The notes under the pieces were generated by a model. It saw nothing but the letters and a program-made list of their open reading frames with translations. It did no database searches and was not told the origin of the DNA. A program made the position numbers and the translations under genes. From a bacterium (lineage in GTDB: Bacteria > UBP15 > UBA6099 > DSWB01), in contig JAGUYV010000365.1 of NCBI GenBank assembly GCA_020061125.1, positions 1-16,187 of the forward strand: DNA of 16,187 bases, read 5' to 3'. Below, piece by piece: positions 1,906-15,479 of the stretch. Positions within the stretch are counted from its first letter, which is position 1, and the number at the start of each line of letters is the position of its first letter.

Positions 1906-1945
1906 GGTTCAACACCCCCTCTGGAAATGGCGGCGCAGCGCTCAT

Positions 1946-1959
1946 GCCGGAAAACCGGC
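1946..1959 (-). promoter_or_regulatory. Short hairpin between the riboswitch and tupA, possible expression platform
   Basis: On the minus strand GCCGG-TTTT-CCGGC forms a perfect 5-bp stem with a four-base loop, about 40 nt before the tupA ATG. No uridine tract follows, so it is not an intrinsic terminator. It could be part of a structure that controls access to the AGGGGG ribosome site. Whether it switches with the aptamer is unknown. Confidence 0.3.
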
Positions 1960-2007
1960 GCAGGAGAAATGGTCATATCCAATATGAAAGAAAAGTCAAC
2001 TCTGCGT

Positions 2008-2103
2008 CTCCTTTCCAAGCATGGGAGGCGGCCGGGTTTCCCGCAGCCACCCTATCGTCCCGTGAGCCATGGCGGCGGCTTTAGGCGCACGGGATCGGAG
2101 CGC
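2008..2103 (-). promoter_or_regulatory. MOCO-type (molybdenum/tungsten cofactor) riboswitch upstream of tupA
   Basis: On the minus strand this roughly 95-nt leader folds as the MOCO RNA class does. P1 pairs CTCC (2100-2097) with GGAG (2011-2008) and extends as GCG with CGC across a bulged A. Another stem pairs CCCGTG (2093-2088) with CACGGG (2064-2059), enclosing AGCC/GGCT. A third pairs GGTGGC (2051-2046) with GCCGCC (2032-2027), capped by GGG-AAA-CCC. Conserved-looking single-stranded blocks include GGGACGA after the second stem and GCCGCCTCCC before the P1 return. The class is known to control molybdenum cofactor synthesis and transport genes, and variants are proposed to sense the tungsten cofactor. 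The downstream tungstate importer favours tungsten cofactor here, by inference. I recognised it from memory of the consensus; a covariance-model search would settle it. Confidence 0.82.
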
Positions 2104-2118
2104 GTGTGTCATTGATGA

Positions 2119-2146
2119 ATTATAGGCAAGCGTTCGATGAAATCAA
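2119..2146 (-). promoter_or_regulatory. Sigma70-type promoter of the riboswitch-tupABC operon
   Basis: Minus-strand TTGATT (2146-2141), a 16-nt spacer and a perfect TATAAT (2124-2119). Transcription would begin near 2112, about 12 nt before the riboswitch P1 helix, so the aptamer lies at the very 5' end of the mRNA. The -35 box is only 4 nt past the TAG stop of the TPR-like gene, so this operon starts right at the end of the upstream gene with no terminator visible between them. Confidence 0.8.
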
Positions 2147-4827: not shown

Positions 4828-6516
4828 TTAGAAGTTGATGAGCAGTTCGCCGCGCACCCTGTTGAAGATGATGGGATCCGCGCCCTGCTGCATGTATTCG
4901 ACTTTGAAGTCGGACACTTTGTTGATGGGCTTGGTCACGGAGAAGGTACCGTAACCGGGGTACGCCCTGCCTTCGGGATCCACTGCACCCAGGCCGCCCC
5001 ATGTTGCGGGGTAGGCGCCGCCGGCGAAGTCGCCGAACACGCCCGTGGCCGCCAGTTTCACATCGCCGAACACGATGTAGCTGGCTTCCACGCCCACGCC
5101 CTTGAAGCCGGCGGGGAAGATGACATTGGTGTCATCGCGGTTGTAGCAGCTTGTGGGATTGACATCCAAGCCCAGGCTGGTGGGGCAGACGGTGTCGTAC
5201 TCGGCGTAGGGGTTCACATCCACGCCGGTGAAGGCCGGGATTGCCGGGATGTCAGCGTAGCTGACGGTCACGCCGACCTTCTTGGTGCCGTACACATCGA
5301 GTCCGACGATGAAGCTGCTGTCATCGTTGTTGGTGAAGTTGGTGGCTCCGCCGGTGCTCGCGCCCGTGACATCGTCGGTGATGGTGAAGTACTCACCGCG
5401 CAGTTTCTTGAGGAACGGGCTGTTCTTGAGCAGATCGGCTTCGACATCCACGCCCCAGCCCTTTTCCTTCACGAGGCCGGAAGCCAGGAAGTTGACGCCA
5501 ATCTTGACCGGGGCCAGGTCCAGGCCCAGGCGCACGGCCGCGTACGGGTCGTTGGCGTCGGAGCCGAGACCCGCGGGGTTGGTGGCGCCAGCGCCGTTGA
5601 CACCGGCCAGACCGGCGAACATGTTGAGTTCGACGATGTCCTTGCCGATATCCATGCGCATGCCAGCCATGGAGTCCACGCCGCGGGTGTCAACCAGTGC
5701 GCCGTAGTAGCCGAAGGTCACGGGCTGGTAACCGCTGGTGATCTTCATGAGATCCAGTTCGCGGATGTCCTCGGAGAAATCAATGGAAACCCACGCATCC
5801 TGGATGGTCAGCTCGGACACGCCGGCGCCGGCCGGAGACGAGCTGGAGGAGAAGGCCTGGTTGTTCAGGGTGCGGGACAGGGTGACCTGCCAGTCCGTCT
5901 TGTTGTCCTTGACCGCATCCTTGAACATGATGCCGGCGTCGAACTCGTAGCCGGCGTCCAGGTTGAGGGCGCCGCCGGCGCCCACGCCGTGAACCACATT
6001 CATCAGGTAACCCAGGCGAGCGGCGTCCAGGTCGCTGTTGACCACATCCACGCGCTGGCGGACCCACCCGTCAATCTCCACATTGGCAAGCGGCAGGTTG
6101 TCAATGCGCTTGTTGGTGATGATGATGTCTTCCGTGTTCTTGTCAACCTGTTTCTTCAGAGCGGCCAGTTCGTCTTTGAACTCGGCGGACAGTTTGTCCA
6201 GCAGAGCCTTGACTTCGGCCATGTCCGTTCCTGCAACGGTGGTGCCTTTGCACTCGCCCTTCTTTTCGTTGCAGTAGTTGGCTTCCACGAAATCCACCAT
6301 GCGCTGCACAACCATGGCGTACTCGTAGCGGGTCATGGGTTTCTCGCCGCGGAATGTTCCGTCCGGGTAACCCACGATCAGGCCTTCGTCCACGAGCAGC
6401 TGAACGGCGTCCGCGGCCCAGTGTCCTTCGGGCACATCCACCAGCTGCACGGCCTTGGCCATGGAGCATGCGCCCATCGCCAGTGTGAATACTGCGAGAT
6501 AAATCAGTTTCTTCAT
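4828..6516 (-). CDS. SLH-domain outer-membrane porin
   Basis: This is an outer-membrane channel protein that is also tied to the cell wall. From ATG 6516 it has 562 residues. A signal peptide ends near AKA (residue 22). The SLH domain spans about 24-76 (FRGEKPMTRYEYAMVVQRMV is its second half; the start reads VDVPEGHWAADAVQLLVDEG) and in this family binds peptidoglycan-linked polymer. A coiled coil follows at about 98-140. The remaining ~415 residues are alternating amphipathic strands rich in Gly, Asp and aromatics, ending in LLINF with the C-terminal Phe recognised by the barrel-assembly machinery. GGGAGG lies 6 nt before the ATG. A GTG at 6672 in the same frame is rejected because the signal peptide starts at 6516. 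Four Cys in the mature part (residues 82, 89 and two in the barrel) are unusual. A long leader and strong terminator fit abundant expression. Confidence 0.9.
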   Translation of the reverse strand: MKKLIYLAVFTLAMGACSMAKAVQLVDVPEGHWAADAVQLLVDEGLIVGYPDGTFRGEKPMTRYEYAMVVQRMVDFVEANYCNEKKGECKGTTVAGTDMAEVKALLDKLSAEFKDELAALKKQVDKNTEDIIITNKRIDNLPLANVEIDGWVRQRVDVVNSDLDAARLGYLMNVVHGVGAGGALNLDAGYEFDAGIMFKDAVKDNKTDWQVTLSRTLNNQAFSSSSSPAGAGVSELTIQDAWVSIDFSEDIRELDLMKITSGYQPVTFGYYGALVDTRGVDSMAGMRMDIGKDIVELNMFAGLAGVNGAGATNPAGLGSDANDPYAAVRLGLDLAPVKIGVNFLASGLVKEKGWGVDVEADLLKNSPFLKKLRGEYFTITDDVTGASTGGATNFTNNDDSSFIVGLDVYGTKKVGVTVSYADIPAIPAFTGVDVNPYAEYDTVCPTSLGLDVNPTSCYNRDDTNVIFPAGFKGVGVEASYIVFGDVKLAATGVFGDFAGGAYPATWGGLGAVDPEGRAYPGYGTFSVTKPINKVSDFKVEYMQQGADPIIFNRVRGELLINF

Positions 6517-11185: not shown

Positions 11186-14149
11186 TCAATCCGGGTCCGA
11201 CGGCGGCTCCACATTCGAGACGAGATCCAGAATGTCAGATTCCTGAAACGGTTTTGCGATTAGAGCGTTAATTCCAAATTTTCTGATGTCTTCGTCGCTG
11301 ACCTGACCCGCCCAGGCGGTAACCACGACCACGAACACATCGGGATTGCCACGGCGCGCGGCGCGCACCACATCCCAGCCACTGAAATCATCCATCTTCA
11401 GATCTGTGTAAACCACATCGAAGGTTCTGCGTTCGAGAAGTTCCGCGGCCTCGGGACCGCTTTGCGCGGAGGTGACTTCGAACCCGTTTGTGCGGAGGAT
11501 TTCGACGATGAGTTCGAGCAAATCCACTTCGTCGTCCACCACCAGGATGCGCGGCCCCGGGTGGCTTGCGCGGGCGCGGGCGAGCCGCTTTTCGTACACC
11601 TCGCGCGCGGGCAGAATCACGCGGAAAGTGGTTCCGCGGCCCGGCTCGGAATCCACCTCGATGGCGCCGCCGTGGCGCTCGATGATGCCGTAGGACACGC
11701 TCAAGCCCAGGCCCGTGCCCTGCATGCCCTTGGTTGTGAAGAAAGGATCGAAAATTCGGCGGCGCACATCCGGGATCATGCCCGAACCGGTGTCTCGCAC
11801 CGTGGCCACAACCCTGCCGCTTTCGCGCGCGGCGGTCAGGGTGATGTCTCCGCCTTCGGGCATGGCGTCCACGGCGTTCAGAATCATGTTGGTGAACACC
11901 TCGATAAGTTCCGGGGCGTTGCCCATGACCATGCAGTCCTGTGCGGAGCGCACGGTGATGTCTATACTGTGGCCCGCGCGCGCGGTGTCGTTTTTCCAAC
12001 GGGTGCGGGTGAACTCCATGGCCTCGGCCAGGACATGGCCGATGTCCACCTGATCGAACTGGTCCAGTCCGGAGCGTCGGCGGGCGAAGCTCTGGATGCG
12101 CTTCACGGTTTCCGCGCCGTGGCGTGCGGCGCGCTGCACCACTTCCAGGCCCTTGGCGATCAGGGGGTCGTCCGTCTGCTTGAGCATGAGCTGGGAGCGG
12201 CCCAGGACCACGGCCAGCAGGTTGTTGAAATCATGCGCCACGCCCATGGCCAGCTCGCCGAGGGCGTTGAGCCGCTGCACGCGCATCATGCGCTCCTGCA
12301 TTTCCTTGAACTCGGTAATGTCCTTGCCAATCACGGCCAGAGCGTCCGGCTCGCCGCGGAAATTCGCAATGGGCGCGGCGGACTGAATCACATGCCGCAC
12401 GCCCCCTTCACTCTCCACGAGTTCCAGCTCCATGTAATCCACGCGCGCCTTGCGCCTCACGCTGCCGATGAGCGCGTCGCACTCCCTCGGGTTGCGGAAA
12501 AGAGTCCTCCACGCCCGGCCTTTCAATTCCCTGGCGCTGTAGTGGAAGATCTCCTCGGTGGCGCGGTTGACATCAAGGATGGTTCCGTCCATGCCCACCA
12601 CGAACACAAAGTCCGTGACCGCGTCGAACAGGCTTCCGAGAAAATCGCGCGCCTGATGCAGCTCTTCCTGCATGTGACGCCGTTCGGTCACATCGTTGTT
12701 GATGTAGGCCACGCCCAGAAGATCTCCCCGTTCGTCGAGCAGGGGATAGAGCATGACCTCGATCACGCGGGTGCCCATGTTGATGGTGTCGTGCCGCCAG
12801 TCGAACTCCATGATAGGCTCGCGATCCTGCATGACGCGGCGTATCCAGTCATCGAAGCCCTCGTCAACCAGATTCGGGAACACCTCGAACAGGTTGCGCC
12901 CGAGCACCTCGGAACCAGGGATGGCGTAGGTCTGCTCCATGTACCGGTTCCAGGTAAGCACATTGCCCGACGGTTCTAATGTGACGATGCCCACGGGCGC
13001 GTTGTGCACGACTTTTGTGAAGAACTCCTGCCAGAAGTAGGCTTTTTCATGGGTGATGTGGGACAGGGTGACATCCTGCACCATTTCGAGCACATGCGTG
13101 ATGCGGCCGGAGCTGTCGAACAAAGGCGCGGCGGAGAACTGGTAATAGCACCCGGAGCGCGGCCCCGCGGAGCTTGTGAAGAGTTTGTCCGCGCGCGCCG
13201 GAGCACGGTTCTTTTTGGCTTTTGCGGCGACGCAGTCGCTGCAGGGCTCGTCGCTGCCGAAAAACAGCTTGTGGCATTTGATACGGCCCTGGCCGGTGTT
13301 GTCCGGGAACCACTCGCGCACGGTGTCATTCATCCAGGTGACACGGTGATCGAGATCCACCAGGGCCAGGCCCGCGCCGATGCTTTGCACGATGAGATTG
13401 AGCTTGTCGCGCTCGCGCTGCAATTCCTGTCCCAGGGTGTGCTGAACGGTGATGTCGCGCGCCACGCACTGCGCCAGGGGCGGGCCGCCGGGCGGGCGCA
13501 GCAGCTTGACATTGTACTCGATGACGCGCCTGCCCCCGTTTTTGTGCATGACTTCCAGTTCCACGGGCATGACCGGGCTTTGGCCGCTGAACACCGCGCC
13601 GAGCACGCTATGCGCGAATCCGGCGTTTTGCTCATCCAGAAACCGGCTGAAGTGCGCGCCCACAATTTCCGCAGGCTCATAACCCAGCATGGGCGTCACG
13701 GCCGGATTGGCGGACAGAATGACCCCCTGCTCTTTTATGAGCAAAATGCCTTCAAGGGCGTTTTCCACCAGTCGCCGGAAATATTCTCTGTCGCTTAAAA
13801 GCGACGCGCCGCCGTCGGCGCCGGCGTGCTCGAGCGCGTCCTCCAGAAGCCGGTCCATGGCGTCGCCGATGTTGCGGACGGTTTCTGGATCCGCATGCAA
13901 TCTTCGGGTTGCGTGGGAGATCAGATGGCGCTTGAGACTGATTGCGAGGCGGGCGATGTCGCGTTCCGCGGCGCCTGCGCCGCAAAAATCCAGAAGCGGG
14001 TTACCGCCGCTGCTCCCGGAATTTCGGCTGAAAACCCGGCGCACGAGACGCTCGAAGGCGCGCTTTCCCGCTTCGTCCGGCGCCGCCCCGCGTTCCCGGC
14101 GCGTCCACCCGGCGAGCATGCCTTCAATGTCGGATTTTTTCAGCCGCAC
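11186..14149 (-). CDS. Soluble multi-PAS hybrid histidine kinase
   Basis: This is a cytoplasmic two-component sensor kinase with its own receiver domain; no membrane segment is seen. GTG 14149 is chosen because AAAGGG lies 6 nt upstream; the longer frame runs into the neighbouring gene, and ATG 14119 is the fallback. Of 987 residues, about 1-120 are a helical lead-in. PAS-like units sit near 121-235, 245-365, 375-490 and 500-615. The second carries KCHKLFFGSDEPCSDC (291-306), a His/Cys cluster seen in some PAS sensors. The HisKA H-box is ALGELAMGVAHDFNN with His639. The ATPase domain shows N758, DTGSG (786-790), FFTTKGMQGTGLGLS. The receiver has DD872-873, phosphoacceptor D916 (YTDLKM), T944 and K966. 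There is no output domain, so signal must pass on by phosphotransfer or protein contact. Partner and stimulus are unknown. Confidence 0.92.
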   Translation of the reverse strand: MRLKKSDIEGMLAGWTRRERGAAPDEAGKRAFERLVRRVFSRNSGSSGGNPLLDFCGAGAAERDIARLAISLKRHLISHATRRLHADPETVRNIGDAMDRLLEDALEHAGADGGASLLSDREYFRRLVENALEGILLIKEQGVILSANPAVTPMLGYEPAEIVGAHFSRFLDEQNAGFAHSVLGAVFSGQSPVMPVELEVMHKNGGRRVIEYNVKLLRPPGGPPLAQCVARDITVQHTLGQELQRERDKLNLIVQSIGAGLALVDLDHRVTWMNDTVREWFPDNTGQGRIKCHKLFFGSDEPCSDCVAAKAKKNRAPARADKLFTSSAGPRSGCYYQFSAAPLFDSSGRITHVLEMVQDVTLSHITHEKAYFWQEFFTKVVHNAPVGIVTLEPSGNVLTWNRYMEQTYAIPGSEVLGRNLFEVFPNLVDEGFDDWIRRVMQDREPIMEFDWRHDTINMGTRVIEVMLYPLLDERGDLLGVAYINNDVTERRHMQEELHQARDFLGSLFDAVTDFVFVVGMDGTILDVNRATEEIFHYSARELKGRAWRTLFRNPRECDALIGSVRRKARVDYMELELVESEGGVRHVIQSAAPIANFRGEPDALAVIGKDITEFKEMQERMMRVQRLNALGELAMGVAHDFNNLLAVVLGRSQLMLKQTDDPLIAKGLEVVQRAARHGAETVKRIQSFARRRSGLDQFDQVDIGHVLAEAMEFTRTRWKNDTARAGHSIDITVRSAQDCMVMGNAPELIEVFTNMILNAVDAMPEGGDITLTAARESGRVVATVRDTGSGMIPDVRRRIFDPFFTTKGMQGTGLGLSVSYGIIERHGGAIEVDSEPGRGTTFRVILPAREVYEKRLARARASHPGPRILVVDDEVDLLELIVEILRTNGFEVTSAQSGPEAAELLERRTFDVVYTDLKMDDFSGWDVVRAARRGNPDVFVVVVTAWAGQVSDEDIRKFGINALIAKPFQESDILDLVSNVEPPSDPD

Positions 14150-14222
14150 GCAAGACCCTTTGCGCCGCACAGCGCCCGTGCTTTGAATAGATATTCCCCG
14201 CCGCGCGCTGAACCTAACAACA

Positions 14223-15431
14223 TTATTGCTTGCCGGGGATTCCGGCCAGCAGGTCCTTGAGGTTGAAGCGCACGAAATCGCCCGGCTTGCGGTTTCTAGC
14301 CCAGACCCAGAAATCGAATGTGGCCGGACGCAGCACGATGGTCTGAACGGTGCCGTCAACCATGACGCCGCTGTCGTGCATCATGGTCTGTGCGATTTCC
14401 GGGGTAATGGCGCCGTGGTGCTGGATGAGCAGTTCGCTCAAGCGGGCGTAGCGCTCGGGGCTGGGGCTGGAACTGAAGTTGCCGGCGGCGATGTTTTTGC
14501 CTTCGAGCGCCGGGGTAGTGAAGTGGTTGGTGGTGTGCAGGGCGTCGTCTTTGAAGCCCAGGGTGTCCACGGTTTTCGCGGTGAGCTCGATAAGTCGCGC
14601 GTCGCCTGTTTTGCCGTCCGCAACCACGACATTGTAACCGGCGATGCGCTTGGCGTCCCTGATGATTTTTTCTGCCTGGTCCGTGCTTTCCGCGTACTGG
14701 GCGAGCATGCGCACGAGGATGAGCGCGGGCACTCCGGAGTCGCCGTTTTCTTCTTCAACAGCCATGGAGAAATTGAGTTCCACGGACACGCCCGCGTCGT
14801 TGATGGTGGTGAGATCTCCCACGATACCGGGATAGATCACGGACGCGAAGGCATGGCCCGTGTTTGGTTTACGCACGATCACCGCGCTGTATGCATCGAG
14901 TTCCTTGAGTCCGCCCTTGGCCCAGTCCAGGTTGCGGCCCTCGATGAGCGCGCCGTCCGCGGTTTTTGGGCCGCGCGCCACGAAGGTCGAGCACAGGATG
15001 GCGAAATAGTCCACATGCGAACTCAAGATCAGAACATCTTCATATTTGAGACCCGCGCCGTCGGCCAGGCCGCGCATTTCTTCGAGATATTCCTCGGGGA
15101 TGTACGGTTCGTTGGCTTTTGCGTGAGCCAGCAGCGTGCCTCGCGGGTCGCTGTACGCCTTGGCCCCGCCTTTGCCCAGGATGGCGATCTGCTTGGTCCA
15201 TTCCTCAATAACTTTTTTGTATAGATACTGCTTGTAAACGAGCTTGATTTCATCTTTGAGCAGGGACCCCTGCTGATGGCCCATGTCGTAGGGCGAGCCT
15301 TCGATGGTGATGACATAGATGCCGTTGACTTTTTCCACGCCTGGCGCGGCGCTTGCGGGAGCGGATTGCAACACGCATGCGAAGACCGCGGCCAGAACCG
15401 CTGCAGCAACGAATGGGAACAGCTTCTTCAT
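14223..15431 (-). CDS. Secreted C45/acyltransferase-like Ntn hydrolase
   Basis: This exported protein belongs to the acyl-CoA:6-aminopenicillanate acyltransferase (peptidase C45) type of N-terminal-nucleophile hydrolases. From ATG 15431, with AGGAGG 8 nt upstream, it has 402 residues: a signal peptide to about residue 28 (APASA), a prosegment with GSPYDMGHQQG near 45-55, then the catalytic entry CSTFVARGPKTADG with Cys147 as expected nucleophile, followed by IEGRNLDW (163-170). In the family, self-cleavage before this Cys exposes it as the N-terminal nucleophile for amide hydrolysis or acyl transfer. Later GDLTTINDAGVSVELNFS and HTTNHF also fit. The substrate cannot be told; family members act on acyl-amino acids, bile-salt-like amides or peptidoglycan-related molecules. 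It sits 73 nt upstream of the kinase gene on the same strand. Confidence 0.85.
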   Translation of the reverse strand: MKKLFPFVAAAVLAAVFACVLQSAPASAAPGVEKVNGIYVITIEGSPYDMGHQQGSLLKDEIKLVYKQYLYKKVIEEWTKQIAILGKGGAKAYSDPRGTLLAHAKANEPYIPEEYLEEMRGLADGAGLKYEDVLILSSHVDYFAILCSTFVARGPKTADGALIEGRNLDWAKGGLKELDAYSAVIVRKPNTGHAFASVIYPGIVGDLTTINDAGVSVELNFSMAVEEENGDSGVPALILVRMLAQYAESTDQAEKIIRDAKRIAGYNVVVADGKTGDARLIELTAKTVDTLGFKDDALHTTNHFTTPALEGKNIAAGNFSSSPSPERYARLSELLIQHHGAITPEIAQTMMHDSGVMVDGTVQTIVLRPATFDFWVWARNRKPGDFVRFNLKDLLAGIPGKQ

Positions 15432-15479
15432 GAAAAAGACCTCCTGGCGGATACGCGCGCACGGGCGCAGGTTCAATGA

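Follow-up and report, generated by a model that had tools for sequence, protein, structure and literature searches.

A P3-less Moco-family riboswitch ahead of tungstate importer genes

Moco-family riboswitches were split by Regulski et al. (2008) according to the P3 stem, and the members that lack it were proposed to sense the tungsten cofactor (Tuco) (PMC2408646). P3-less RNAs and Tuco metabolism coincided in 17 of 19 organisms, and tupA and tupB served in that study as markers of Tuco users (PMC2408646). Instability of the cofactor makes direct binding measurements difficult (PMC2408646). On the protein side, the TupA of D. alaskensis has a tungstate site made up of TTTS, His59, Arg118, Thr124, and Asp170, and it binds tungstate about 1000 times more tightly than molybdate (PMC5517513).

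The RNA described here lies in a window of 16,187 nucleotides, the whole stretch of DNA analysed, which is one contig (C107) of a draft assembly of 4.1 Mb in 513 contigs, 79% complete. Because the division between P3-less Tuco sensors and other members was already proposed in 2008, this RNA falls within an existing proposal; it is a good example of a previously proposed switch type, not a new kind. All window features given below are on the minus strand.

The aptamer, its promoter, and the tup genes

Positions 2112-1991 match Rfam RF01055 (Moco/W riboswitch) in cmscan with 64.5 bits and an E value of 8.2e-14, well above the gathering threshold of 36 bits, and the match covers the full length of the model (positions 1-135). 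At the level of sequence, this covariance match confirms the original prediction of a MOCO-class RNA: the element (1991-2112) is a genuine Moco-family riboswitch of the short form. A scan of the whole draft assembly found no second copy. In the RF01055 alignment, the conserved blocks CUCCGA, CCUAA, the GGAAAC loop, CCUCCC, and GGAAAGGAG are all found, and nearly all pairs of the model are preserved. P1 consists of the 5' strand GCGCUCC (2097-2103) and the 3' strand GGAGaCGC (2004-2011), the latter within the conserved GGAAAGGAG, while the P4 hairpin (2026-2052) ends in a GAAA tetraloop. The P3 stem is absent. The alignment deletes the P3 columns, and CGAUA alone (2053-2057) joins P2 to P4 at that site, so the helix content matches that of the proposed Tuco subgroup.

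A sigma70-like promoter, TTGATT-16-TATAAT, is predicted at 2119-2146, where a promoter had been expected. It agrees with the consensus in 10 of 12 positions, a quality expected 0.3 times per shuffle. Its -10 box ends about 7 bases ahead of the aptamer, and the predicted transcription start (about 2112) is the aptamer's first base. Promoter and aptamer share a 245-nt gap between the stop of the upstream gene (2151) and the start of tupA (1905), which begins about 100 nt beyond the aptamer, placing the RNA in the 5' leader of a Mo/W-uptake gene.

This gene, tupA (1036-1905), encodes the tungstate-binding lipoprotein of a TupABC importer and is preceded by a purine-rich ribosome-binding site, GAGGGGG (1915-1921). 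Its product matches NCBIfam NF041772 with E 1.5e-63 and 214.7 bits, under the curated 400; the name TupA is therefore given on homology and on the site residues and does not denote an NCBIfam equivalog. The best solved relatives are those from Geobacter (3lr1, E 1.5e-75) and D. alaskensis (5my5, E 3.5e-73), and alignment to 5my5 shows that the tungstate-site residues are preserved as TTTS at 47, His97, Arg157, Thr163, and Asp207. The permease gene tupB (288-1004) follows; TupB scores 189 bits against NF038017, above the cut-off, and matches NF041773 with E 1.7e-49, under the curated 320. The 5' part of tupC (84-281), identified by its translation and an ABC_tran match, encodes an ATPase with Walker A. 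From 281, about 66 residues can be read before the contig end interrupts the gene, and residues 2-66 are 48% identical to a TupC.

The importer genes thus stand directly after the RNA and in the predicted order A-B-C, with the reservation that tupC is incomplete and only tupA and tupB are whole genes here. Window bases 1 to about 95 have a GC content of 0.43, compared with 0.62 in the adjoining tup genes. No convincing remainder of tupC was found elsewhere in the genome, nor was the sequence of bases 1-95. When the contig end was tested as a repeat or plasmid element, the matches were limited to Walker A fragments and a single marginal plasmid hit; this odd end reads as an assembly break or an insertion. 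Genes unrelated to the riboswitch elsewhere in the window include those for an SLH-domain porin-like protein (4828-6510), a multi-PAS hybrid histidine kinase (11186-14245), and a C45 autoproteolytic hydrolase (14223-15470).

Tungsten genes, P3, and the likely ligand

Taken together, the locus probably represents a P3-less riboswitch, of the type proposed to sense Tuco, that controls the tupAB(C) tungstate importer by feedback. The host's gene content is of the tungsten type. As expected of a host of the proposed Tuco subgroup, it has tungsten-metabolism genes, namely a single tupA and two genes for aldehyde:ferredoxin oxidoreductase (AOR), with P. furiosus 1aor among their best solved relatives (442 and 367 bits), and modA (ModA, TIGR01256) was not found in the 79%-complete genome. 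Two formate dehydrogenase alpha genes also score above the curated cut-off. The AOR and formate dehydrogenase families include tungsten enzymes, yet their members can also carry molybdenum; at this family level, the genes support the predicted use of tungstoenzymes. Both AOR genes are free of the RNA, since the sole RF01055 copy stands before tupA. By sequence inspection, one of them follows a CbiMNQO-like transporter cluster and the other a glutamine-synthetase-like gene.

A survey of about 490 genomes, comprising a sample of relatives across the domain plus two phyla, yielded 131 RF01055 matches. Each RNA was assigned its P3 status with a script and by visual inspection, the genes that come first downstream were sorted into groups, and representatives of these were searched for family matches. 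Eleven RNAs have P3, three carry a 27-nt insert lacking a clear stem, and about 117 are P3-less. TupA is encoded by the first gene after 20 of the 131 RNAs, including the window's (19 of these 20 P3-less), which makes tupA one of the commonest targets in the survey. Placement before a tungstate importer had been treated as unusual; these counts do not bear this out, and the idea drawn from it is already present in the 2008 work (PMC2408646). The other tungsten-type targets are WtpA (11 RNAs, all P3-less) and AOR, which is reached directly in 15 cases and behind an Fe-S gene in three, all 18 P3-less. MoaA follows 17 RNAs, 14 of them P3-less, and MoeA six P3-less RNAs. At least seven RNAs precede modA, three with P3 and at least four without (L105, L157, L186, L195).

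Tuco is a plausible and favoured ligand on sequence grounds, as the original prediction proposed, given the absent P3, TupA, the AOR genes, and the failure to find modA. An unlikely but substantial alternative is that the RNA senses Moco or both cofactors, so that P3 absence would be a lineage or structural trait and tupABC would follow the total pterin-cofactor state. P3-less RNAs do stand before modA and moaA, the E. coli RNA lost control, with no change of specificity, when its P3 was deleted (PMC2408646), and TupA also binds molybdate in the nanomolar range (PMC5517513). Against this stand the host genome described above and the survey, in which none of the 18 AOR targets has an RNA with P3 and the two forms separate inside single genomes: G223, G358, and G483, which belong to a single genus, each have an RNA with P3 before modA and a P3-less one before wtpA. 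P3-less RNAs in these three genomes also precede an aldehyde-dehydrogenase-like gene. The rule has exceptions, with P3 RNAs before one tupA (L154) and before three WtpB-like operons (L005, L182, L202). Tungsten-type and ModA targets differ by P3 with a Fisher p of 0.01, or 0.06 when the WtpB cases count as tungsten, values that include two weak ModA-like cases (L150, L170) as ModA and are optimistic because the surveyed genomes are related, not independent.

The survey updates the 2008 correlation in two ways. The presence of P3 argues against an AOR target, and its absence is so widespread that it cannot prove Tuco sensing; P3 absence alone was rejected as such proof, since P3-less RNAs also precede modA. 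For the same reasons, the expectation that this RNA would be a useful member for separating Moco from Tuco specificity holds only moderately.

Further Moco RNAs precede aldehyde-dehydrogenase-like genes (L125, L149, L163, L181, L187, L209, L210, and L223, with PF00171 in L210), which possibly encode a metal-free AOR substitute made when cofactor is scarce. Two Moco RNAs also occur about 0.3-0.7 kb apart on one strand in L222 (G417:C74), where they are in tandem, and in L221 (G416:C20).

Control of tupA and distribution of the RNA

Folding suggests how Tuco could act on the leader. The sequence GAGCGC (1938-1943) is complementary to the P1 5' strand and is a candidate partner for it in the ligand-free leader. 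The free leader prefers this GCGCUC:GAGCGC pairing, with an ensemble energy of -97.7 compared with -92.5 kcal/mol when P1 is forced, and a cost of about 5 kcal/mol in this model would lie within the reach of ligand binding. Transcription would begin at about the aptamer's first base. When tungsten cofactor is plentiful, it would bind the RNA and P1 would close; when it is scarce, the P1 5' strand could instead pair with the GAGCGC that lies 160 nt downstream. This would most likely amount to feedback, in which the cofactor-bound RNA would lower tupA expression and scarcity would let the importer be made.

Control would most likely act at translation, a mode favoured because no intrinsic terminator was seen after the aptamer. 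In folding, the tupA ribosome-binding site showed no clear shift in accessibility on P1 closure (mean unpaired 0.35 with P1 forced, 0.37 otherwise). A possible leader ORF of 8 codons starts with TTG 8 nt past the AAGGAG of P1 (1973-1999) and may be a chance occurrence. Many moaA genes and some other targets in the survey begin translation directly past the P1 AAGGAG, as does none of 18 surveyed tupA genes.

The pairing of this RNA with tupA is not conserved in the order. Two of the six other genomes of the order (G001, G006) have one P3-less RF01055 RNA each, both before a TonB-dependent receptor gene instead of tupA, and the remaining four have no RF01055 RNA. Five of the six have tupA, and scans of these five loci, as well as of eight loci that carry close homologues of TupA in named genomes, found no RF01055 RNA. 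This patchy distribution and the lack of a clear expression platform in folding would suit a Moco RNA that persists in the leader in degenerate or non-functional form, a reading that the full-length match, the complete set of conserved blocks, the nearly intact pairing, and the promoter immediately ahead of the aptamer make very improbable. Chance resemblance or assignment to the wrong family is refuted by the RF01055 covariance match, which lies 28 bits over gathering with a family-typical gene adjoining.

Across the survey, P3-less RNAs before TonB-dependent receptors occur at L096 (G001:C182:5449-5571, minus strand), L097 (G006:C222:3540-3662, minus strand), L155, L159, and L189, and all three receptors scanned have Plug and barrel Pfam matches. 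These receptors are candidates for outer-membrane uptake of tungstate or molybdate. Channels of the TonB type had been noted earlier close to molybdopterin riboswitches in Pelobacter carbinolicus (PMC3543383). P3-less RNAs also precede anion porins of the porin O/P family (L099, L158, L221; PF07396 in the two scanned). Tentatively, P3-less RNAs in this order and beyond it may control tungsten uptake more broadly, in a regulon extending to the outer membrane by way of TonB-dependent receptors in the two order relatives and porin O/P in others; the target of the RNA would then have shifted between tungstate uptake at the inner and at the outer membrane within one order.

Comparison with described systems

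A lone P3-less aptamer with its own promoter here precedes a tungstate importer, in a genome that has AOR genes and in which modA was not found, and the locus thus offers a clean natural construct for the Moco-versus-Tuco question. Its importer resembles the TupABC systems of D. alaskensis (5my5) and Geobacter (3lr1) in TupA site residues and gene order, and differs in the incomplete tupC, owing to the contig end. The RNA is like the P3-lacking RF01055 subgroup of Regulski et al. (2008) in its conserved blocks, GAAA tetraloop, P1, P2, and P4, in the missing P3, and in the tungsten-use gene downstream. There is no essential difference; a leader of about 100 nt separates P1 from tupA and leaves the tupA ribosome-binding site outside P1. 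With the E. coli moaA Moco RNA it has family and core in common. The E. coli RNA differs in having P3 and in controlling moaABCDE with the ribosome-binding site inside P1; it is specific for Moco and does not respond to Tuco (PMC2408646).
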